From assembly GCA_015232405.1 (NCBI GenBank), contig JADFZS010000035.1:1-43379 (forward strand): DNA of 43,379 nt. The letters are read 5' to 3'. The notes beneath the pieces were generated by a model. The model did not search any database. It was not told the origin of the DNA and worked only from the letters and a program-made list of their open reading frames with translations. Below are positions 5,576 to 40,566 of the stretch, piece after piece. A program made the position numbers and the translations under genes. The first letter of the stretch is position 1. Each line of letters begins with the position of its first letter. Source of the stretch: Magnetococcales bacterium. GTDB lineage: Bacteria; Pseudomonadota; Magnetococcia; Magnetococcales; JADFYX01.

Positions 5576-6247
5576 CTATTTATCTGCCTGACAGGTTTTA
5601 GAAAAATATATATTACCGTAATAAGAAGTAGCTTGTTGCCCTGAATTATCAGTATCGGTCATCAGAGCCACACCATCTATTTTATTGATGTTTCTGTCAA
5701 AATATTGATAAAAATCATTTTTGACATTGCGTACCTCCCTAACCCATCTACCTTTTTTTTGTTCTCCACCTTGTATGGAGATTATCATGGCTTTATCGGT
5801 GAATGCGTTGGGCCAGGAGTGGCCTATGTTATTCTTATTTGAAGACCAAACATAACTTATTGTTCTGGTGTTCCATATGGTGATTCCCCCCGATAGAACC
5901 ACATAAACCCTGGCAGGATAGTCGTCACCTTTTTTGGTTTTTTCATCAAGTCCATTGAGAATATTATCTATTTTCCAAGACCAATGCAGACAGGGGGTTT
6001 TATTCAAATCAACGGACATCTCCCTGAACATTCCAGATGCAGATTGTGAGCTTTGGGCCTTGAGAACCCCCCCGATACCTGGCTCTCTTATAATTGTATA
6101 TACCGTTTTATTATTGAATATTTTGTGTTTCCATTGGGCAAGATCACCATCTTTGAAGTTGCCAAGCATAAGTTCAGATGCCCAGCTTTGTGATGTCATC
6201 AACAGTAAAATAATGATAAAATGAGATATAATTTTGAAGTTTTTCAA
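5576..6247 (-). CDS. secreted DUF3047 family protein
   Basis: This 223-residue protein has a typical signal peptide (hydrophobic residues about 9-20, cleavage near SWA-SE), so it is exported. The mature part carries features of the DUF3047 family: HWSWKIDNI followed by KKGDDYPARVYVV, then W-N-x-R-T-I-S-Y-V-W, and a late IDGVALMTDTDNSGQQA segment. Members are small periplasmic or outer-membrane-associated beta proteins of unknown function. The start codon appears to be TTG, with no clear ribosome binding site; it is kept because it begins the signal peptide. The gene is divergent from the signalling gene at 6414 with 166 bases between them. Confidence 0.82.
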   Translation of the reverse strand: MKNFKIISHFIIILLLMTSQSWASELMLGNFKDGDLAQWKHKIFNNKTVYTIIREPGIGGVLKAQSSQSASGMFREMSVDLNKTPCLHWSWKIDNILNGLDEKTKKGDDYPARVYVVLSGGITIWNTRTISYVWSSNKNNIGHSWPNAFTDKAMIISIQGGEQKKGRWVREVRNVKNDFYQYFDRNINKIDGVALMTDTDNSGQQATSYYGNIYFSKTCQADK

Positions 6248-6413
6248 TGTTTATTGCATATTGGTTGTTAAACTATTTGGATAAGTAGCATATAATCTGG
6301 CTGTTTAATACTTGATATTTATCCTTGCAAGAAAAAGCATGCAGTGAGCAACAGCTGTATCCGATAAACAGATTACCAGATAAAATGTTTAAAATTATTG
6401 AGATATCAGTTAT

Positions 6414-8453
6414 ATGACCAACAAAACAAATTCCAGCACAAAACCACTTATTTTTGTGGTTGATGATGATGATATATTTCAGAATATACTGGCGTTATTC
6501 CTTGAAAAAAGTGGCTACAGTGTTAAACGGCTGGATGGTGGCAAACAGGCAATAGAGCTATGTGAAAATCTAATGCCGGATCTTATCATGATGGATGCTG
6601 TTATGCCAGATATAGATGGTTTTACAGCTTGTCAGGCAATCAAAAACAATAAAAACACAGCAAACATACCCATTATCATGGTTACTGGTAATGATGATGC
6701 CACATCTGTGGAACAAGCGTTTGGTTCCGGTGCTGAAGAGTATATTACCAAGCCCATTCAATGGTTGGTTTTGCGGCAACGTATTCGTATCTATCTGGAA
6801 CGTAAAAACAACCTTCTAGCCCTGCAAGAAAGTGAAGAGAGGTTTCGCTCTGTTACAGACTCAACAGTTGATGCCATTATCTCCGCCGACGAAAATGGGG
6901 ATATTATTTTTTGGAACAAAGGAGCGCAAAATATTTTTGGCTATAGTGTCGCAGAAATTGTAGGCAAGCCCGTAACCACTATCATACCAAAAAATTTAAG
7001 AAGCAAACATATTGGTGGTTTTGAACGCTATTTAAAAACTGGTGAATCCAGGTTTGAAGGTCGTAGTATTGAGCTTGAAGGTCTTAAAAATGATGGAACA
7101 AAGTTCCCTTTGGAAATCTCCATCTCATCCTGGGTTAGCACCGATAAAAGATATATCTCGGCTGTTGCTAGAGATATCACTGAACGAAAAAAAGTTATCA
7201 GTTCCAGAGAGGGAGTTGCTCTCTTTGATACCCAGATTATCGAGCAGATATACTCCCTTTGGCAAAGAGTCTGTAGCCGAGATGATTATCAACTAACTTT
7301 TCAAAAACTAAAAAGTATTTTGGAACTGGTGTTCTTGGCAGGAATCCAAAGTGAAGAGGGAGAGTCAATTAGCCTTGCTGTCTCTTTAATAGACCCCAAC
7401 TATTTTGTTAATAGAGGTCAATCAAACGACAGCTCTGTTATTTTCTTTAAAAACCACCTACCTTTCAACCTTGATTCCTTGGGTAAATTGGCTCCAGGCT
7501 TTGATCCTGAAACTACGGTTATTGCGGTTAGTAGCAATACAGATAACCCGGAAACATTGCATATTTGGGGAGCCATATATGTTAGCATGCGAGGTAACAC
7601 CACTTTGGACCCCTACCCTTTTACTCCAGAACCACTTGATGTCATTACAGTATCATCTTTAAAACCAGGCTCCTTGACCATATCATGGGGTGGACAAGAC
7701 CTAGCAAACTTTAGCTCAGGCCATTTTACAGAGACCTCCATAGGTTCAGAATCTTCATGTGTTGCAAATCAAACAATTCAAAAGGTTATCAAAGGCCACA
7801 AAGAGTATAAAAAGGAGGGTAACTCCTACTGGCTAATATATCAGGAGATGATTAACCTTTTGGTAGAAGAGGCAAGCAAACGCTGCCATGGAGCAACTAT
7901 AATATGGTTACCTGAAAAGATGATCAATATATCCAATAGATCATTAATAACCAAATACCCCCTATATCAAGAGACCAACACTCCTGAAATCATTGCCAAT
8001 CTATGTGCTATGCAAAAAGAAAAAATAAATAATGGTAATGGTGAAAAAAGGGGCGTAAAAAGTGAGTTAGCAGATAAACAGGTATTAGAAGATGCAATAA
8101 ACGAATGTAAAAAAATGTTGATTGACCATATTGATTTTGTCAGCCAGCTTACAACCATTGATGGTGCTCTGATTATCTCACATCAATTAACCCCCCTGTC
8201 GTTTGGTTCTGTTTTAGACTCTCCCCAATGGTCAGGCAATACCTACTATTACCAACCTGGTTATCCTGAAAAGCGTGAAGAGGTTAATTTAACCAAATAT
8301 GGTACACGTCACACATCGGCAGTTAATTTTGTTGGCAAACACCCTGGTGTTATCGCCTTTGTTATTTCCCAAGATGGACCAATATCGTGTCTGTTGAGAA
8401 AAAAACAAAATGAAGTGCTGTGGGTTCCAGATTTTCTCAGTTCCCGTTTTTAA
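6414..8453 (+). CDS. response regulator-PAS-diadenylate cyclase (probable c-di-AMP synthase)
   Basis: Three modules are visible in 679 residues. (1) A receiver domain (about 11-130) with acidic cluster D17-D20, phosphoacceptor D61 in MMDAVMPD, T91 and K113. (2) A PAS domain (about 139-262) starting SEERFRSVTDSTVDAIISAD and ending in the usual DITERK. (3) A C-terminal part whose last 130 residues look like the DisA_N/DAC catalytic fold: DGA at 583-585 in TTIDGALIIS and GTRH at 630-633 in GTRHTSAVNF, followed by VIAFVISQDGPIS. The DGA and RHR-like motifs bind ATP in DisA and CdaA; here the third position of RHR is threonine. The region about 265-560 resembles the sensor segments that precede DAC domains in Gram-negative diadenylate cyclases. 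Expected reaction: 2 ATP to c-di-AMP, tuned by phosphorylation and a PAS signal. No histidine kinase is adjacent. The start has no clear ribosome binding site. Confidence 0.85.
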   Translation: MTNKTNSSTKPLIFVVDDDDIFQNILALFLEKSGYSVKRLDGGKQAIELCENLMPDLIMMDAVMPDIDGFTACQAIKNNKNTANIPIIMVTGNDDATSVEQAFGSGAEEYITKPIQWLVLRQRIRIYLERKNNLLALQESEERFRSVTDSTVDAIISADENGDIIFWNKGAQNIFGYSVAEIVGKPVTTIIPKNLRSKHIGGFERYLKTGESRFEGRSIELEGLKNDGTKFPLEISISSWVSTDKRYISAVARDITERKKVISSREGVALFDTQIIEQIYSLWQRVCSRDDYQLTFQKLKSILELVFLAGIQSEEGESISLAVSLIDPNYFVNRGQSNDSSVIFFKNHLPFNLDSLGKLAPGFDPETTVIAVSSNTDNPETLHIWGAIYVSMRGNTTLDPYPFTPEPLDVITVSSLKPGSLTISWGGQDLANFSSGHFTETSIGSESSCVANQTIQKVIKGHKEYKKEGNSYWLIYQEMINLLVEEASKRCHGATIIWLPEKMINISNRSLITKYPLYQETNTPEIIANLCAMQKEKINNGNGEKRGVKSELADKQVLEDAINECKKMLIDHIDFVSQLTTIDGALIISHQLTPLSFGSVLDSPQWSGNTYYYQPGYPEKREEVNLTKYGTRHTSAVNFVGKHPGVIAFVISQDGPISCLLRKKQNEVLWVPDFLSSRF

Positions 8454-8526
8454 ACAGGCGGAAGTTATGATAGTGAACAACGTTTAATTTGATAGATGAC
8501 AACTCCAACCCAACAGGCGATATATT

Positions 8527-9990
8527 TTGTCTGATACTCTTTTAGCAAAAACTACTGCTACATTAAAAAAAGGCATTGCCAAGCAACAAGCCGGGCAGTT
8601 TGATGAGGCCCTTGCCTGTTTTAGTGAATGCCTTAATTATGACCCAAAACACGTTGAGTCTCTCTGTTATATGGGGGCGATATTAGAGGTAAAAGGCAAG
8701 ATTGATGTTGCCATATCATGTTATAAAATGGCGATATCCATAGAGCCGGACAATCCATTTGCCCATTATAGTATGGGTAACGCTTTAACAGAAAAACAAC
8801 AGCTGGATGCAGCAGTAACATATTATCAAAAAGCCATTGATATAAAAGCAGATTATGCTTATGCCTATAACAATATGGGAAATGCTCTGGGATATCAGGG
8901 CAAAATAGCTGATGCTGCCAACTGTTATAAAAAAGCTGTGGAGTATAAAGGAGATTTTTCTGCCGCCTATTTTAATCTATCCCAGGTCAATAAATTTACC
9001 CACATAGCAGAGACCCAAGCTATGAAAAACCTACTTGATAAAGAGCCTCACAACTCAGGCAAAATTGCACTTAATTTTGCCCTGGGAAAGGCCATGGCTG
9101 ATTTAGGGTGTAATGAGGAGTCATTTGACTATTATCTGGTTGGCAACAGGTTGATGCGCAAGACAATCAACTTTGATATTAATAAAACCGCTACCAATTT
9201 TGCTTTTTATAAAAAAATATTTGATAAAAAGTTTTTTGCTACAAGAAAAAAATGGGGCTGTCTGGCAACAACCCCTATTTTCATCCTTGGCATGCCCCGT
9301 TCCGGCTCTACCCTTATAGAGCAGATACTATCTAGCCATCCAGAGGTTTTTGGTGGTGGTGAACAGCTTTTTTTAAAAGAGGTTCTTTATGAAAATATAT
9401 CACAAGATTTAAACTTAATTCCCCAGGCTATTGATGAGATGCCTTTTCAAACAGCTGAAAAATTGGGCCAAGCCTATATTGATAAATTGGCTGGTCTATC
9501 ACCTGGCAGCCCATATATTACCGACAAAATGCCAGAGAATTTTCTTTACATAGGTATTATAAAAGCCATTCTGCCAGAGGCAAAAATAATCCATTGCCAC
9601 CGTTCACCCATGGATACCTGCCTGTCGATATTTCAACAAAAATTCTCCGGGGTACACGATTATGCCTATGACCTGACAGAACTAGGTGAGTACTATAACC
9701 TCTACAGAGGTCTAATGGACCATTGGCACAAAACACTACCAAACACAATTTTGGATGTCACCTATGAAAATTTGATAAATAACCGTGAGATTGAGATCAA
9801 AAGAGTATTAGATTTCTGCAACCTTGAATGGAACGATAACTGCCTTGATTTTCACAAAACCAAGCGCAACATACAGACCGCTAGTAACAGCCAAGTTAGA
9901 AAACCTCTATACTCTAGCTCAATTGACCGATGGAGGCTGTATAAGTCACAACTTCAACCGTTGATAAATGCTCTTGATGATAAAAAATAG
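8527..9990 (+). CDS. TPR-repeat sulfotransferase family protein
   Basis: The 487-residue protein has an N-terminal block of four TPR units (about residues 7-150, for example FDEALACFSECLNYDPKH and DAAVTYYQKAIDIKADYAYA). The C-terminal sulfotransferase domain has the 5'-phosphosulfate loop GMPRSGST at 255-262 and a later HCHRSPMDTCLSIF segment that resembles the 3'-phosphate-binding motif. Related TPR-sulfotransferases are thought to move a sulfuryl group from PAPS to a protein tyrosine or a glycan. The acceptor here is unknown. The start is a TTG with a weak AGGCGA upstream; no later ATG would preserve the first TPR. It follows the diadenylate cyclase gene on the same strand after 73 bases, so co-transcription is possible. 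Confidence 0.88.
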   Translation: MSDTLLAKTTATLKKGIAKQQAGQFDEALACFSECLNYDPKHVESLCYMGAILEVKGKIDVAISCYKMAISIEPDNPFAHYSMGNALTEKQQLDAAVTYYQKAIDIKADYAYAYNNMGNALGYQGKIADAANCYKKAVEYKGDFSAAYFNLSQVNKFTHIAETQAMKNLLDKEPHNSGKIALNFALGKAMADLGCNEESFDYYLVGNRLMRKTINFDINKTATNFAFYKKIFDKKFFATRKKWGCLATTPIFILGMPRSGSTLIEQILSSHPEVFGGGEQLFLKEVLYENISQDLNLIPQAIDEMPFQTAEKLGQAYIDKLAGLSPGSPYITDKMPENFLYIGIIKAILPEAKIIHCHRSPMDTCLSIFQQKFSGVHDYAYDLTELGEYYNLYRGLMDHWHKTLPNTILDVTYENLINNREIEIKRVLDFCNLEWNDNCLDFHKTKRNIQTASNSQVRKPLYSSSIDRWRLYKSQLQPLINALDDKK

Positions 9991-10283
9991 CAAACTTGTA
10001 TCCATATTTTATTGAAGCTTATAGAGACAGTTAGCGGTTTTTTTACCAGCTGTTAATAAATAATATTTGACCATCCCTACAGGTATAAAAAAAACCCAAC
10101 ATTAAAATTTTTATAGTAGCATCAGTATATATATATTGGTTAACGTTTGCTAATATATAATAATAATAAAATACTACATACGCTTAAATTGAATAGAACA
10201 ATCTAGATCATATATATCTCATTGTGCTACTCTACAGATATTATCGAAAGATAGGACTTTTAAATTAATAACAGCCGCAAAGA

Positions 10284-11465: not shown

Positions 11466-12326
11466 TCAGCCAGCCCGCCTATTTTTATTAAATAATAGAG
11501 ATTTAACAATCAAGAGCATAAATACCACTGCTAAAAACAGAGAAATCAATATGATGATTTTGTTCTGTTGTAATGCAAAAAGATCAAAACCCTCATCCTC
11601 AACAGTGGCATTTGCAACAATTATTTCATCTAGAGGCTCATTGACTGGTGCAACATCAATGGTCTCAGCCACAACTTTATTTTCAGCAGGATCACTCTCA
11701 ACTGTTGGTCCCACTACCCAATTTGCAACCAATGGCTCTTCATCAACGACATCTGCATTGGAGTTCAAACCTACAACGGTGCTGTTATCCATATCTGTAA
11801 GGGGTGCTTTTTCTTGGGGTTCTACTTTTGTTTCTAAAACATCTTTTGTAGCTGGATTATCATCACCACTGGCATCATCACTTTTATCGCTACTGTTTTG
11901 TAATTGGCTTGCAACCTCCTCTTTTTCTCCAGGTTCCATGATAAACACAACTTTTTTTAGTTTGCCAAATTTAAATTTTCCATAAATAGATGTGCCAGAT
12001 GGCAGAGTTTTCTCTCCTTCCCCGTGCTGTAATCCATTTTTCCAATAGCCAATATATTTAGTGCCATCTTCCCAGACAAATGTACCCAAACCATTAAACT
12101 TGTTTTCCTTGAAAAAACCATCATAGTTGGAACCGTCAGGCCAGGTTAGTGTGCCGCTTCCGGTGCGGACTCCATCGACAAACTCACCTCTGTAGTGGGT
12201 TCCTGTATGTGTAATAGACTCCCCATATCCACTTTTACAATCGCCATAAACACAGACAGCTAAAGCGGTATTTGTGAATGAAAAAAATGTAAATATCGCG
12301 AAAAGTATATATTGAGATAATTTCAT
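11466..12326 (-). CDS. exported MORN-repeat protein with C-terminal membrane anchor
   Basis: This 286-residue protein has a signal peptide (about 1-23) and then three clear MORN repeats: YRGEFVDGVRTGSGTLTW, YDGFFKENKFNGLGTFVW and YIGYWKNGLQHGEGEKTL, plus a degenerate fourth. An acidic, low-complexity middle (about 140-255, rich in D, E, V and A) leads to one transmembrane helix (IIILISLFLAVVFMLLIVK) and a short basic end NKNRR. The topology predicts periplasmic MORN repeats tethered to the inner membrane. MORN repeats can bind lipids or proteins, but no function is assigned. It is convergent with the pentaheme cytochrome gene, 12 bases apart. Confidence 0.85.
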   Translation of the reverse strand: MKLSQYILFAIFTFFSFTNTALAVCVYGDCKSGYGESITHTGTHYRGEFVDGVRTGSGTLTWPDGSNYDGFFKENKFNGLGTFVWEDGTKYIGYWKNGLQHGEGEKTLPSGTSIYGKFKFGKLKKVVFIMEPGEKEEVASQLQNSSDKSDDASGDDNPATKDVLETKVEPQEKAPLTDMDNSTVVGLNSNADVVDEEPLVANWVVGPTVESDPAENKVVAETIDVAPVNEPLDEIIVANATVEDEGFDLFALQQNKIIILISLFLAVVFMLLIVKSLLFNKNRRAG

Positions 12327-12581
12327 GATTATTCCTATATTTATATCACACCTAGCAAATACATACTATCAGATAAACAGCTCAAAGGTATAGCTACTCA
12401 TTGTTGAAATGTATCTATTTTGCTTTTTAGAATGCCATATTCAAGCAAAAAGTTAAAAACAGTCCATTCTAAACTCCCTATAAAATAGTTTTTGCATTTT
12501 ATTTTTGCTACAATAGGACAATTACAACAGCTTTCTGTAAACTATAAAGAATGGTTAACTATTTTTAACTTAGGAGATAAT

Positions 12582-13034
12582 ATGAGTACAACTAGGAAAA
12601 ATTCTCTTGCCGGTATGTCTATTATCAACCTGCTAAAGATAGATTTTTTTTCCACTTTCACAGACGAACAAAAAGCGGCACTTAGCAGTAAAAAGATTTT
12701 TTATGCGTTAAAAGATGGCGACTATCTTTTACACAAAGATGACAATGAAAAATCATTTTATGTTCTTATGCAGGGTGAGATAGAGGCTATTGATGATGAT
12801 GGCAATATTCTCAACACTCAACAATCCGGCTCAGTAATTGGTGAAATATCTTTTTTGTGTAACTCACCCCGTACCTGCAATGTCGTTGCCGTTGGCAATA
12901 TTTTTGTGATGAAAATAGATGATGAAATAATGGATAATCTGGATGATAGCCTGAAAATAGCTATAAAAGACAAATTAATTCAGGTTCTTGTTGATCGTGT
13001 TACCGATAATGATCAAACAAAAGTACAGACCTAA
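12582..13034 (+). CDS. stand-alone cyclic nucleotide-binding domain protein (second of three)
   Basis: This is a single CNB domain of 150 residues with the cassette GEISFLCNSPRTCNVVAV, which retains the conserved glutamate and arginine. No output domain follows. The end (IKDKLIQVLVDRV) is similar to the end of the protein at 1574-2014, so the two are probably paralogues. The ATG at 12582 is chosen because TAGGAGATAAT precedes it directly; an upstream in-frame start at 12492 would add 30 residues without resemblance to the family. The protein probably works as a small ligand-sensing subunit that binds another protein. Confidence 0.85.
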   Translation: MSTTRKNSLAGMSIINLLKIDFFSTFTDEQKAALSSKKIFYALKDGDYLLHKDDNEKSFYVLMQGEIEAIDDDGNILNTQQSGSVIGEISFLCNSPRTCNVVAVGNIFVMKIDDEIMDNLDDSLKIAIKDKLIQVLVDRVTDNDQTKVQT

Positions 13035-25355: not shown

Positions 25356-25889
25356 ATGTATGAATTATCAGAAGAGCCTGAAATATCAGACGAAGTCAAA
25401 ATAAATCTGTTTGCTGATAATTTACCGGGAATCTCCCCCGAAGATTCTATAAGTGTGCTGCCTTTTTTAACCTCGGCAAGTTTCAATAAGGATACTGTTA
25501 TTTTTACAGAGGGAGATGTTAGTGATTTTATATGCTTTATTGTCTCAGGAGAGGTAATTGTTGTTAAGGAGGACTCCCAACATCTGCGGTTTGACTCCAA
25601 CTATGAACACCAAATAATGTCAAGGCTCCATAAAGATCAACTGTTTGGTGAGCTTGCCTTCCTTGACGAACTACCACGTTCGGCATCAGCTGTTGCTGTC
25701 TCTGATACAGTGATCATAAAATTGGACCGGGATCATTTTGACAAAATGAGAGAAGAAAACCCTCGCCTTTGGGGTAATATCATATTGAGTATCAGCAAAC
25801 TGGTTTGTGCCAGATTGCGCAGATCAGGTGGAGCTTTGGTGGATCTACGTCTGAGTATTGATTCTGCCCTTAGCGCCTTGGCAAATTAA
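25356..25889 (+). CDS. stand-alone cyclic nucleotide-binding domain protein (third of three)
   Basis: This 177-residue protein has an acidic N-terminal extension (about 45 residues), one CNB domain with the cassette FGELAFLDELPRSASAVAV (conserved glutamate and arginine present), and a C-terminal helical tail of about 40 residues. No helix-turn-helix is visible. It is less similar to the other two CNB proteins than they are to each other. AAAGG lies about eight bases before the ATG. The divergent HD-GYP-like gene is its neighbour, which is suggestive of a shared signalling role but does not prove one. Confidence 0.86.
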   Translation: MYELSEEPEISDEVKINLFADNLPGISPEDSISVLPFLTSASFNKDTVIFTEGDVSDFICFIVSGEVIVVKEDSQHLRFDSNYEHQIMSRLHKDQLFGELAFLDELPRSASAVAVSDTVIIKLDRDHFDKMREENPRLWGNIILSISKLVCARLRRSGGALVDLRLSIDSALSALAN

Positions 25890-27186: not shown

Positions 27187-30100
27187 ATGTGTGGTATCGC
27201 AGGCTTTATTTCAAAAGATTTAAACTCTCCTATAAACAATATTTCATGGATTCAAGATATTGCCAAAAAACTGCAAACCATCTCCACTGGTGGTGATGCT
27301 GTTGAAGAGCTATCTGCATTAATATTAATACTTAGAGAAAACTTTACCGAGTTGATGTCCCTTGCCACCCATCAGGCAATTGCCAACAACAACGACATTC
27401 TTAATGATGTAGAGTTTATCATCTCCGCATTTAAAAAGCACGAAACCGCATTGGTAGAGCTTTCCCAAGCTGGTCGAACCGACCTTGACCCTGTTATCGA
27501 GGGGCTGCGTGACTTTGGTTGGCAACTCCATAAAGAGCTTGTTGGTCATATAAAAAGGGTTACAGAGCTTGCGGGTTCTGACCTTGATGGGAACGCAGTT
27601 GGCGTAGCCTTTGCCACTGAACATGTGATGAATGCCATTGATCGTCTAGAGGTACGGGGACGTGACTCTGCTGGTATCACCATACAGTTTCCCATCCCTT
27701 CAGAAAAACTTGCTACACTGCCACCCAATTTAGCTAAAGAGTTGGAGGAACGGCTAACAAGTTCCCATGTTGATCACCTCGCAATTTCCATGACAGACTC
27801 ATCAGGTAAAAGTTTTTTTGGTTTTGTCTATAAAACCGCCAACCTTATTGGTCGCCTTGGGGAAAATGGTGCTGCTCTGCGTGGGGCGATTTCCCAGGAT
27901 AAACTTTTTTGGCATCTTGCAGCATTTGCAACCCAAGTCAGTGTATTGGCCCATACTCGTTGGGCTTCAAGTGGCATTATCTCACTATCCAACTGCCACC
28001 CCCACAACGCCTCTGTTGCAACAAGACAGTCAACCCATAACGAGGTGGGCTGTATGTTTGTTCTAAATGGCGATATTGACAACCATGTTGAACTGGCAAA
28101 AAAAATGGAGTCAAGTGGTCCGAAGGATAGTGAATCAGCCATCACCACCGACGCCAAGATCATACCCATTGTACATCGCCACACCCAACAAGGATCTAGC
28201 TCAAACTTCGACAATTTTCGCGCCACAATCCGCCAGCTTGACGGCTCCATGGCCATTGGCATGATAGATTTAAGCCAACCAGGAGAGACATATTTAGCGC
28301 AAAAAGGGTCCGGTCAGGGTCTATACGCAGCAAACCTTGTTGATGGTTGGATGTTTGCGTCAGAGGTATATGGTCTGGCTAGTGTTACCCGTTCTGCATT
28401 TAATCTTTCAAGCAACGTTCAAGGTGGTTCTGTTACAAGGCTGGATGCCAAATTGAAAAAACCCGATGTCCGGTCAGTAACAGATGGAACTTCAGTAACC
28501 GTAGCCCCTGATGATATTCAAATTTTTGCCCGTGATATCTATCGGGGCCATTTTGATTTCTTTTTGGAAAAAGAGATTCACGAGGCTCCCTCCTCGGTGG
28601 CGAAAACCCTGCGTGGTCGCTATCGCCATGCCGATGGTTCTGTTAAATTTGATGGTCTGCCCTCAGATATCTGGGAAATGCTACGCAAACGGTTAAAGAG
28701 TGACCTACGCTGGATATATGTCATTGGTCAGGGTACAGCAGGTGTCGCTGGTGTTGGTATTGCCCACCTTATTGAACGGGCGTTTTCCAATAAAATGCGC
28801 AATACAATCACCGTCAGGGCGCTGCGCTCCTCCGAGCTTTCTGTTGAGATTGATGAATCCACCTTTGAAAATGCCATTGTTATTGCTGTCTCCCAGTCAG
28901 GTACGACAACTGATACCAACCGTGCTGTAGATCTTGCCCGTGAGCGTGGGGCTTTTGTCCATGCCATTGTCAATCGACGCAACTCCGATCTGGTACGTAA
29001 ATCAGATTCGGTTATTTACACCTCCGATGGACGTGATGTTGAGATGTCTGTCGCTTCAACCAAGGCGTTTTATTCGCAAATAACCGCAGGTAAACTCACC
29101 GCCCTGTTTATAGCTGACGCTCTTGATACCATGACAAGTATGGAAATTCAGCATGAGATGGTTGAGCTAGAGGCCCTACCGGGTAAAATTCAAGAGGTGT
29201 TGGAGATGAAGGAGCATATCTGTGAATGTGCCAAAAGTTATGCTCCAAACGCACGATACTGGGCAGTTACCGGTTCTGGTATCAACCATATTGCTGCCCT
29301 TGAGATACGCATCAAACTTTCTGAACTATGTTATAAATCCATACCCGTTGATTTTACCGAAGATAAAAAACATATCGACCTCTCAACTGAGCCTATGACC
29401 CTGGTGATAGCCAATGATTTAAAACCGGAGGTTGTGGGGGATGTGGTAAAAGAGATTGCCATATTTAAAGCTCACAATGGCAGACCAATCGTCATAGCAA
29501 CCAAAGGGCCGGACTCCCAAGCCTTTACAACCTACGCTGAACGGGTTATCGCTCTACCCAGGGTAAGCACAGATCTAGCCTTTGCATTAGCCGCTGTAGC
29601 CGGGCATTTGTTCTCATTTTATGCAGCACAAGCGGTGGATGATGGGGCTCAATATCTAAAACAAATAATGCTCTGCTTGGGAGAAATGATAAAAACCCAA
29701 GCTAAAGATGATGTGACTGCCACCTTGGATGCTTTTCAGGTTTTTCTCGGTAAGGCAGCTGTTGGTGGCTATGACTCTGGCTTGGGGGCAAGACATATAG
29801 CAAAAATTTCTTTAACTGCCAACGCCATGGCCTATGCACTAAATAAAGATGATATAGCAACCTGTGTAAAGCTAGCCAAAGATACTCTAACCCCATTACA
29901 GACAGCAATTGACGAAACCAGCCGTCCCATTGATACCATTCGTCATCAAGCAAAAACGGTAACTGTTGGCACAAGTAGACCCGACGATGCCCTTTCACCT
30001 GTTGTTAGAGATGCCATTGCCAACATTGGTATTCTAGAAAGCGGCATCTCCACCGATGACCGCAAGACTCTATCTTCCATCTCCCGTCTGGTGGATCAGG

Positions 30101-30549
30101 TTAACTGGAGTGCTGAACTTAAAATTGAGAGAGAAGGCAAAGAAAAACAGCTCAAACTAATTGGTACACCACCACCATCGGAGGCACTGCAACGCTATGC
30201 ACAAGCCACACTGCCTGTGGGTCTGCTAGGTGTAGTGATAGATGAAAACCGGGTAGCAATCGGCAAGCTGGGTACAGTAGAGGCTATTGTAATACCAGTG
30301 AGAGATGAAAACACACCAGAGGCAAGCTCGCTAATTTTCCTATCGGTAACAATGCTCACCTACGCCTCAAGAGAGCAAAAACTAGCCGTACTAAAATCCT
30401 TGGGTATCTTCAAACGTAAACTAAGGGAGTGGGAAGCCTACCACAACACCGAGGTGGAAAAAGAGCTAACAGAAGAGATAGTCTTCAACGACCCCACAAC
30501 ACTATTTTTCGACCCCAACGCCCTAAACCCGGCAAACGCCAGGAGGTAG
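27187..30549 (+). CDS. very large GlmS-like glutamine amidotransferase with two SIS domains
   Basis: The 1120-residue protein is nearly twice the size of GlmS (about 610). The class II amidotransferase core is complete: nucleophile C2 in MCGIAGFIS, RGRDSAG at 157-163, LAHTRWASSG, HPHNAS and FVLNGDIDN. An extra helical segment of about 130 residues interrupts it after residue 12. The first SIS domain has VSQSGTTTDT and VASTKAFYSQ as in GlmS. The second keeps a histidine (KKHID) near the usual catalytic KHGP, but the surrounding loop is changed. The last 300 residues are an extension with no domain that I recognise. GlmS activity (fructose-6-phosphate plus glutamine to glucosamine-6-phosphate) or a related sugar amination is likely. 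The stop codon directly abuts the stop of the next, convergent gene. Confidence 0.87.
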   Translation: MCGIAGFISKDLNSPINNISWIQDIAKKLQTISTGGDAVEELSALILILRENFTELMSLATHQAIANNNDILNDVEFIISAFKKHETALVELSQAGRTDLDPVIEGLRDFGWQLHKELVGHIKRVTELAGSDLDGNAVGVAFATEHVMNAIDRLEVRGRDSAGITIQFPIPSEKLATLPPNLAKELEERLTSSHVDHLAISMTDSSGKSFFGFVYKTANLIGRLGENGAALRGAISQDKLFWHLAAFATQVSVLAHTRWASSGIISLSNCHPHNASVATRQSTHNEVGCMFVLNGDIDNHVELAKKMESSGPKDSESAITTDAKIIPIVHRHTQQGSSSNFDNFRATIRQLDGSMAIGMIDLSQPGETYLAQKGSGQGLYAANLVDGWMFASEVYGLASVTRSAFNLSSNVQGGSVTRLDAKLKKPDVRSVTDGTSVTVAPDDIQIFARDIYRGHFDFFLEKEIHEAPSSVAKTLRGRYRHADGSVKFDGLPSDIWEMLRKRLKSDLRWIYVIGQGTAGVAGVGIAHLIERAFSNKMRNTITVRALRSSELSVEIDESTFENAIVIAVSQSGTTTDTNRAVDLARERGAFVHAIVNRRNSDLVRKSDSVIYTSDGRDVEMSVASTKAFYSQITAGKLTALFIADALDTMTSMEIQHEMVELEALPGKIQEVLEMKEHICECAKSYAPNARYWAVTGSGINHIAALEIRIKLSELCYKSIPVDFTEDKKHIDLSTEPMTLVIANDLKPEVVGDVVKEIAIFKAHNGRPIVIATKGPDSQAFTTYAERVIALPRVSTDLAFALAAVAGHLFSFYAAQAVDDGAQYLKQIMLCLGEMIKTQAKDDVTATLDAFQVFLGKAAVGGYDSGLGARHIAKISLTANAMAYALNKDDIATCVKLAKDTLTPLQTAIDETSRPIDTIRHQAKTVTVGTSRPDDALSPVVRDAIANIGILESGISTDDRKTLSSISRLVDQVNWSAELKIEREGKEKQLKLIGTPPPSEALQRYAQATLPVGLLGVVIDENRVAIGKLGTVEAIVIPVRDENTPEASSLIFLSVTMLTYASREQKLAVLKSLGIFKRKLREWEAYHNTEVEKELTEEIVFNDPTTLFFDPNALNPANARR

Positions 30550-38859: not shown

Positions 38860-40566
38860 TTATGGTGTGGAGCTGTTCAACAAAAAGAAGAGAACTAGGT
38901 TTAACAACAGCAACAATCCAGTCATCACCTGCCAGACAAGCATAGGGTTACGCTGGATAAGGGGGATATGTTTTTCTTTAGCAAGCTGAGGGTTTGGGTG
39001 GGTAAAATCTTGGACAAATTCTGACAACAGATCATATCTAAGTTTTGGATCTTGCTGCACAGCTTTGGCTATGGCTCCATCCATCCAGGTAGGTACAAGT
39101 GGGTTGTGTGTGCTAGCTGGTATGTAGCACTCCCTTTTTGTATCACCTTCGGCATAAGGGAGCCTACCTGTTAGCATCTCATAGACGATCACCCCGATTG
39201 AATAGATATCTGACCTTTTTGTTCCGGGATTGTTGGCAAAATATTCAGGTGCGCTATAACTTTTAGTACCAAGATTCTCTTCTCGTTGTATGGGGGTTGC
39301 TATCTCGGCTATTCCACCTATTTTTACCGAGCCAAAATCGATAATTTTTATCAGCCCCTCTTTGGTGATAAAGATATTCTGTGGTTTTAGATCTCTATGG
39401 AGCATCTCCAACCGATGAAACACCCGTACACCATTGACAATCTGGGCTAGCAACTCCTGAACCTTGGTAATTTCCGCCAGAGGATTATCTTCCATCCAGC
39501 TTTGCAGTGTCATACCGTCAAGAGACTCCAATACCATATAGAGAAAATGCCTCCTTTGCCCCACTTCAAGAATATCCATAACGTGGTGGCTATCCATACG
39601 CTTTCCTGCCCACTCTTCATGATAAAACCGTTCAATATAGGCTGGATCATCGCTAAAATTTACCGATGGAGTTTTTATAACCACAACCTTATCATTAATT
39701 TCATCCCTTGCTCGATATAGCTGTGATGTCGAACTTGAATGCAGCTCTGCTACAATACGGTAGCCATCTAGCACCATACCTATCTGAAGCTCTGGTGGAA
39801 AAGGCAGTGTTGTTAAATCTTGACAAACCTCAGCAACATCTTGGCTGGGAAGAGCTTTAACCTCTACAACCATGCAGGTTACATTATCTAATGAGCTGTT
39901 GTTTATAGCACTGTTACAAATATTTTTAGCAACAAGATCGGGATCAACTTGTTTTGCTTGCAACTGTTCTACAAAAAGGCTATCGGGTACAAAATCACGC
40001 ACCCCATCACTCATCAACAAAAAAAAGTCCCCAACCATAAGTGGCACAGTCAGACAATCTATCTCAAGGTCCGAATCCGCCCCCATAGCACGGCTTAGAT
40101 ACTCTCGCTCGGCAGAAACCTGTACCCGGTGTGGACGGGTAAGGGTTTCGACCTCCATGCCCGAAATTTTAACAATACAGGAATCACCAACATGAAACAG
40201 ATGTCCTGTGGTAGATTTAAGTATCAAGGCACTCAAAGTGGTGACCAAACCCCTGCGAGACTCTTGCCTACGTTGTCCCTCACTAAAAAGCCAGCTATTG
40301 GTTGCGGAGAGAATTTTTTGGGCGGAGGTTTTTACAGTCCATGATTCTGAAGTACTAAAATAGTCGTTGATAAAACTTTTTACCGCAAATTCACTTGCTT
40401 CAGCTCCACTATCACAGCAGCTGACACCATCAGCCAGAAGTGCTACAGCCCCTTTAGTTTGCAATAGATGGGGTTCAGGTATCATCCAACCACAAAAATC
40501 CTGGTTTTCATTTTTTTTACCTTTGTCGCTATAATAGCCAACGGATATTTCAAGCTTTTTTTTCAT
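38860..40566 (-). CDS. fused PP2C phosphatase-Ser/Thr protein kinase with C-terminal membrane anchor
   Basis: The 568-residue bifunctional protein has a PP2C domain (about 1-235) with metal-binding D46-G47 (LLADGVS), GDSC at 127-130, MSDGVRDF and DNVT at 227-230. A Hanks-type kinase follows (about 269-520) with the ATP lysine in VVVIK (298), HRDLKPQN at 390-397 and DFG at 410-412; the glycine loop is degenerate (ELHSSSTSQLY). One transmembrane helix (about 546-564) ends the chain, so both domains are cytoplasmic. It sits between narK and nirB on the same strand, a placement recurrent in gammaproteobacterial nitrate-assimilation loci. Regulation of nitrate uptake or reduction by reversible phosphorylation is likely, but its target is unknown. 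Confidence 0.92.
   Translation of the reverse strand: MKKKLEISVGYYSDKGKKNENQDFCGWMIPEPHLLQTKGAVALLADGVSCCDSGAEASEFAVKSFINDYFSTSESWTVKTSAQKILSATNSWLFSEGQRRQESRRGLVTTLSALILKSTTGHLFHVGDSCIVKISGMEVETLTRPHRVQVSAEREYLSRAMGADSDLEIDCLTVPLMVGDFFLLMSDGVRDFVPDSLFVEQLQAKQVDPDLVAKNICNSAINNSSLDNVTCMVVEVKALPSQDVAEVCQDLTTLPFPPELQIGMVLDGYRIVAELHSSSTSQLYRARDEINDKVVVIKTPSVNFSDDPAYIERFYHEEWAGKRMDSHHVMDILEVGQRRHFLYMVLESLDGMTLQSWMEDNPLAEITKVQELLAQIVNGVRVFHRLEMLHRDLKPQNIFITKEGLIKIIDFGSVKIGGIAEIATPIQREENLGTKSYSAPEYFANNPGTKRSDIYSIGVIVYEMLTGRLPYAEGDTKRECYIPASTHNPLVPTWMDGAIAKAVQQDPKLRYDLLSEFVQDFTHPNPQLAKEKHIPLIQRNPMLVWQVMTGLLLLLNLVLFFLLNSSTP

Follow-up and report, generated by a model that had tools for sequence, protein, structure and literature searches.

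A candidate c-di-AMP synthase with receiver and PAS input domains in a Magnetococcales bacterium

The well-studied diadenylate cyclases (DACs), which produce cyclic di-adenosine monophosphate (c-di-AMP), take their cues from DNA structure, from membrane partners or from sporulation. A different mode of control is found in PleD, where pairing of receivers brings two cyclase domains together. The output domain of PleD and receiver-GGDEF cyclases is GGDEF, whereas it is of DAC type in the protein described here, a 679-amino-acid receiver-PAS-DACNV-DAC protein encoded on a 43,379-nucleotide contig of a Magnetococcales bacterium (JADFZS010000035.1, assembly GCA_015232405.1), referred to over its full length as the window. 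We propose, at a probability of about 0.7, that it is a c-di-AMP synthase of the DACNV type whose phospho-receiver serves as input in the manner of PleD, the state of residue D61 setting whether its DAC sites face each other. Compared with DisA of M. tuberculosis and T. maritima, receiver, PAS and DACNV stand in front of the DAC domain, RHT replaces RHR, and the DAC domain carries an extra stretch. The protein also ends with the DAC domain, no helix-hairpin-helix being matched at E <= 10 in Pfam, a search in which most matches above E 0.1 were dropped, and it is thus not a member of DisA. CdaA is membrane-linked (PMC8573169), whereas the protein here begins with a receiver followed by PAS and DACNV, and N-terminal membrane helices of the CdaA type are absent, as judged from Pfam domains and the structural model rather than from a membrane-helix predictor. 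The N-terminal receiver sets the 679-residue protein apart from CdaA/DacA, CdaS and CdaM. In the portions of the literature searched, we found neither a response regulator among the DACs described nor any study of c-di-AMP in Magnetococcus, Galperin 2023 (J Bacteriol 205 e0002323), which may list such proteins, lying outside that scope.

The gene (6414..8453, + strand; ATG start, stop codon included, no internal stop) has the position and frame given in a preliminary description of this DNA, which had read it as a receiver-PAS-diadenylate cyclase under apparent two-component control. The receiver domain (residues 10-134; 6441..6815, +) matches Response_reg above cut-off (residues 13-124, 97.2 bits, E 8.4e-28) and is complete as described, with D17/D18, the acceptor D61 (6594-6596), T91 and K113 all present. 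It is followed by a PAS domain (residues 142-260; 6837..7193, +), likewise borne out by a PAS_9 match above cut-off (residues 153-257, 69.5 bits, E 3.3e-19), which contains a FixL-type histidine, H199 (7008-7010). Not noted in that description was a DACNV domain at about residues 270-395 (7221..7598, +), which Pfam calls a probable sensor domain (PF21751, residues 298-388, 51.7 bits, E 1e-13, cut-off 27). The DAC domain seems to start at about residue 447. Its first part (about residues 447-499; 7752..7910, +), delimited by structure alignments, contains the invariant G493, and its second (about residues 552-676; 8067..8441, +) holds the DGA motif (583-585), GTRHT (630-634; 8301..8315, +) and Ser652; DGA and GTRH stand where the preliminary description placed them, followed by Thr634. 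The two parts are separated by an extra stretch of approximate boundaries (residues 500-551; 7911..8066, +), the least conserved part of the gene.

The nearest organism-named homologues come from Magnetococcales, an order of the class Magnetococcia in the phylum Pseudomonadota (NCBI); one protein, P0042, is labelled Nitrospirae in one source and Magnetococcales in another. Standalone DACNV-DACs (PF21751 and PF02457), which share DACNV and DAC with the 679-residue protein end to end and lack receiver and PAS, outnumber the receiver-bearing form in the class, judged by frame length; those of Magnetococcales are about 36-41% identical to it, most at 97-98% coverage. This family is already known in that DACNV is a named Pfam domain, after which NCBI names some Magnetococcales members (P0014, P0029), while P0022 and P0036 are named after the DisA nucleotide-binding domain. 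All 66 homologues in our alignment match DACNV, and the 679-residue protein shows both marks of the family, DACNV above cut-off and a predicted DAC domain after it. In a tree of the DACNV-DAC part, the 22 receiver-PAS proteins and P0006, which has PAS only (597 amino acids), form one branch (100/100) nested among standalone DACNV-DACs, while two GAF-DACNV-DACs form a separate branch. A second receiver-PAS-DACNV-DAC, with the motif GTRHA, is encoded on contig C304 of the same genome, where an alaS-like gene follows just downstream. No receiver was found in the new rows of a wider alignment search (89 proteins), in which scoring was limited to the 7997 candidates with the most shared words; the search for receivers did not extend to other kinds of DAC.

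The assignment of the C-terminal domain to the DACs is carried by structure prediction. When the predicted model was compared with solved structures, only diadenylate cyclases were returned at comparable Z score, and the best 40 entries were all DACs. The VIA alignments to these structures start at model residues 184-210 (protein residues 445-471) and end at 414-418 (675-679). The preliminary description had expected a DisA_N match and a DAC fold; a DAC fold is predicted, and PF02457 does match residues 564-661 (E 1.4e-4). Its score of 21.8 bits falls below the cut-off of 27, which is the first of several points that weigh against our reading. Foldseek superpositions were loose (root mean square deviation mostly 11-13, template modelling score by target about 0.5), a sequence search of the PDB with a profile of 40 standalone homologues reached a best E of 0.024, and hhalign against 13 proteobacterial CdaA proteins, drawn from 42 genomes with such matches, gave a probability of 60.5 over 31 columns. 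In addition, the full-length model has a predicted template modelling score of 0.58, so that the domain arrangement is not predicted, and the 50 entries listed by a whole-model structure search were all taken by receiver matches. The Pfam DAC score was set aside as arbiter because most relatives in the class escape PF02457 as well. From the first DAC strand to DGA there are 91 residues here vs 43 in proteobacterial CdaA, about 48 extra, a count that depends on a model-based matching of the first strands which we infer. A chance motif match was considered as well and is ruled out by conservation over 66 proteins together with the predicted DAC fold.

D583, G630, R632, H633, S652, D654 and G655 are invariant in the 66-protein alignment, and within DGA the glycine is kept in 65/66 and the alanine in 64/66. 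S652 is probably the equivalent of the catalytic serine that PMC10086821 names after the RHR helix, judging from the alignment with the PDB match. The full RHR motif of the DAC superfamily is not found, the sequence reading RHT, and this is a further point against an active enzyme, as the preliminary description had cautioned. The last arginine is indeed absent; its loss is, however, not peculiar to one dead enzyme. While R-H is present in 66/66, the third arginine occurs in 10/66, where it is confined to the 18 proteins P0049-P0066, and it is missing from all 48 proteins of the clade on one side of a branch with support of 97/91. The residue in its place is A (13), T (6), S (2), I (1) or G (1) in the 23 receiver-PAS or PAS proteins, N (15), S (5) or H (3) in 23 standalone proteins of the same clade, and N in both GAF proteins. 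RHT is therefore part of a lineage-wide loss with the remaining site kept and, without this being proof of activity, can be argued to be a tolerated change rather than the mark of a single dead enzyme.

This loss bears directly on two other explanations. The DAC domain could be catalytically dead and serve, for example, as a regulatory sensor of ATP or c-di-AMP, with receiver and PAS controlling oligomer state or a partner protein. The absence of the arginine in 48/48 and the low PF02457 score fit such an idea, and changing RHR to AAA abolishes activity of the M. tuberculosis enzyme according to PMC3328451, although all three residues, R-H included, were changed there. However, loss of catalysis should have let at least some of Asp583, Arg632, His633 and Ser652 change, whereas all four are invariant in 66/66, and variation at the third RHR position is also seen in a natural DisA (GTRHLTA, with DRA in place of DGA), recorded in a figure legend of PMC10086821 that does not state its activity. 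Moreover, the c-di-AMP phosphodiesterase type PgpH, present in 46/48 genomes of the class, would then be left, in most of them, without any known DAC to supply it. We thus consider a dead DAC domain unlikely. Alternatively, the altered RHx could have shifted the chemistry towards a linear dinucleotide or some cyclic nucleotide other than c-di-AMP, in keeping with the confinement of the motif change to one lineage and with the large sequence distance of the DACNV-DAC group from DisA and CdaA. Set against this, the genomes keep PgpH, which PMC9259658 treats as a c-di-AMP phosphodiesterase type with one member seemingly not acting so, and we regard another product as very improbable.

The putative two-component control rests on the receiver itself. 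Among the 22 receiver-bearing proteins, D18, D61, T91 and K113 are kept in all and D17 in 21, which, together with the receiver-PAS form being a single clade, supports the two-component control suggested at the outset. For the DAC gene and same-genus genes from two genomes, the ratio of nonsynonymous to synonymous substitutions (dN/dS, omega) was 0.110 and 0.093 over the gene, rough figures given synonymous sites near saturation; in a third, more distant gene, synonymous sites were saturated in most parts. Every domain with computable dS stayed below 0.2, the receiver at 0.117 and 0.097. By these ratios the DAC gene is under purifying selection, and an omega of about 0.1 speaks against a pseudogene or decaying gene. 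An active enzyme that is not gated by phosphorylation, with receiver and PAS serving dimerisation, localisation or stability only, would nevertheless account for two observations: no histidine kinase gene was found among the 33 other window open reading frames (ORFs) scanned, which also counts against our own proposal, and the DACNV-DAC core seems to work without a receiver because standalone forms exist and are the commoner form. Orphan response regulators are common. Both the conservation of the acceptor-site residues and the low omega of the receiver would be unusual for a mere scaffold, and we find an ungated enzyme quite unlikely, still less probable than a dead DAC domain.

At six receiver-PAS-DAC loci (L008, L009, L011, L012, L013 and L060), a divergent gene that looks kinase-like by eye is shared about 0.74-0.85 kb upstream of the DAC gene; this synteny may mean little because the loci are close relatives. 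In the same-genus genome G008 (L079), the receiver-PAS-DAC orthologue (6681-8774, +) is directly preceded by a receiver-GGDEF gene (5727-6662, +), which encodes a diguanylate cyclase. This single case, a possible operon, suggests joint control of cyclic di-guanosine monophosphate (c-di-GMP) and c-di-AMP in that genome.

The PAS domain raises the question of a heme-borne signal. Thirteen solved sequences match it at E <= 1e-8, namely seven FixL, four DosP, one "heme PAS sensor protein" and one "yddU"; the latter two entries we take to be DosP as well. H199 lies in a predicted helix (residues 193-209) and aligns without gaps to the FixL histidine, so that the protein shares the histidine position of the FixL/DosP heme-PAS domains, whereas it differs at the column we presume to be that of the distal arginine of FixL, which is I219 here. 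A histidine on helix F-alpha, the mark of the heme-PAS FixL/DosP cluster (PMC10468136), is therefore present. Across the family, the FixL-type histidine is found in 12/23 PAS domains and absent from 11/23, and is thus not conserved. As a control, we considered the PAS domain of the paralogue, which lacks the histidine and also matches FixL best; the FixL match alone therefore proves nothing, and the heme idea is weakened by this control.

The genome, whose assembly consists of 335 contigs and is 90% complete, also encodes a PgpH-type protein of 772 amino acids (L085, 721-3039, -) with 7TMR-HDED, 7TM-7TMR_HD and HD above cut-off, adjoining phoH-like and ybeY-like genes as judged by eye from translations. 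At E <= 10, DAC matches in this genome are limited to the 679-residue protein and its C304 paralogue; the E. coli genome taken as a control has neither a DACNV nor a DAC match. Also present are a DHHA1-bearing protein of 312 amino acids and four proteins with TrkA_C domains, of which two are ion channels and two are transporters. DACNV is found in 43/48 genomes of the class; the Pfam DAC profile exceeds its cut-off in 3/48 and reaches E <= 0.001 in 9/48. Four genomes have PgpH without DACNV (G002, G005, G023 and G026; 76, 71, 75 and 93% complete), G002 having a DAC of another frame length above cut-off; G016 has DACNV without PgpH and G034 has neither.

In a sample of 397 phylum genomes at >= 90% completeness, 30 class members and 367 others, PgpH was above cut-off in 30/30 class members vs 1/367 others, with three more others below cut-off, and DACNV was found in 29/30 vs 0/367 (Fisher p 5e-42, a value that takes no account of the class being a single lineage). 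A DAC is not always accompanied by PgpH, since none of the 42 other phylum genomes with a DAC above cut-off (41 in frames of 253-320 amino acids; groups f15, f18, f42 and f59) had PgpH above cut-off. Outside the class, PgpH was found in 12/28 searched genomes with DACNV loci. The pairing of PgpH and DACNV is thus firm in the class and mixed elsewhere, and its co-occurrence is mainly that of one class, close to a single evolutionary event, which, like the 12/28, detracts from its weight for our reading.

In the proposed mechanism, an unlinked histidine kinase would phosphorylate D61, and the receiver would act by analogy with PleD, phosphorylation changing the pairing of two chains and thereby whether the DAC active sites face each other. 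The DAC domain would then turn ATP into c-di-AMP, PAS and DACNV could add small-molecule inputs, possibly O2 or redox, PgpH would remove c-di-AMP, and the TrkA_C channels and transporters are candidate c-di-AMP receivers. A wider proposal, which we regard as doubtful, is a class-wide c-di-AMP system of the Magnetococcia built on DACNV synthases mostly below the DAC cut-off, with the 679-residue enzyme as its two-component arm. A kinase signal through D61 and an oxygen or redox signal through a heme-bearing PAS would together set the level of c-di-AMP, and potassium and osmotic control would thereby be coupled to the oxygen gradients along which magnetotactic bacteria steer.

The upstream neighbour of the DAC gene is a divergent DUF3047 gene. 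The next gene downstream, a TPR-sulfotransferase gene (8527..9990, +), starts 73 bases further on the same strand, a pair also found in a same-genus genome (G011, L082); a MORN-repeat protein is encoded at 11466-12326 (-), and in L082 the DAC-sulfotransferase pair is followed by a gene that resembles it by eye. A promoter and terminator scan was uninformative. Across the 66 loci compared, from which seven without a called DAC frame had been dropped (L018, L030, L031, L045, L066, L069 and L074), the two biggest groups of neighbours (12 and 9 of 66 loci) varied in distance and strand, and the remaining clusters were mostly common to close relatives. The window encodes three small proteins with cyclic-nucleotide-binding domains (1574-2014, 12492-13034 and 25356-25889, all +); at one of the 66 loci, L014, a related small gene for cyclic nucleotide binding (9530-9997, +) is separated by 13 bases from the standalone DACNV-DAC downstream of it. 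A role in defence was also considered, a DAC having been shown to matter in CBASS-type phage defence (PMC13092281). It is unsupported: PADLOC matches are confined to the receiver (residues 4-133 and 8-71; PD-T4-6 3.3e-7, SduA 0.001), and no CBASS gene was found among the window ORFs scanned by Pfam. Further along the window, a PP2C phosphatase fused to a Ser/Thr kinase (38860-40566, -) adjoins a molybdopterin oxidoreductase, a nitrite/sulfite reductase and a major facilitator superfamily transporter, probably for nitrate assimilation. The product of 27187-30549 (+), at 1120 residues, combines glutamine amidotransferase with SIS domains in a GlmS-like make-up and looks about twice as long as usual.

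The disappearance of the last RHR arginine throughout the lineage offers a natural experiment on which active-site residues are indispensable. If our reading of the 679-residue protein is true, two-component signalling would have c-di-AMP among its direct outputs alongside c-di-GMP, and turnover of c-di-AMP would take place in nearly the whole class that holds the magnetotactic cocci, given DACNV in 43 and PgpH in 46 of 48 genomes, even though the usual DAC profile rises above its cut-off in just three of them.
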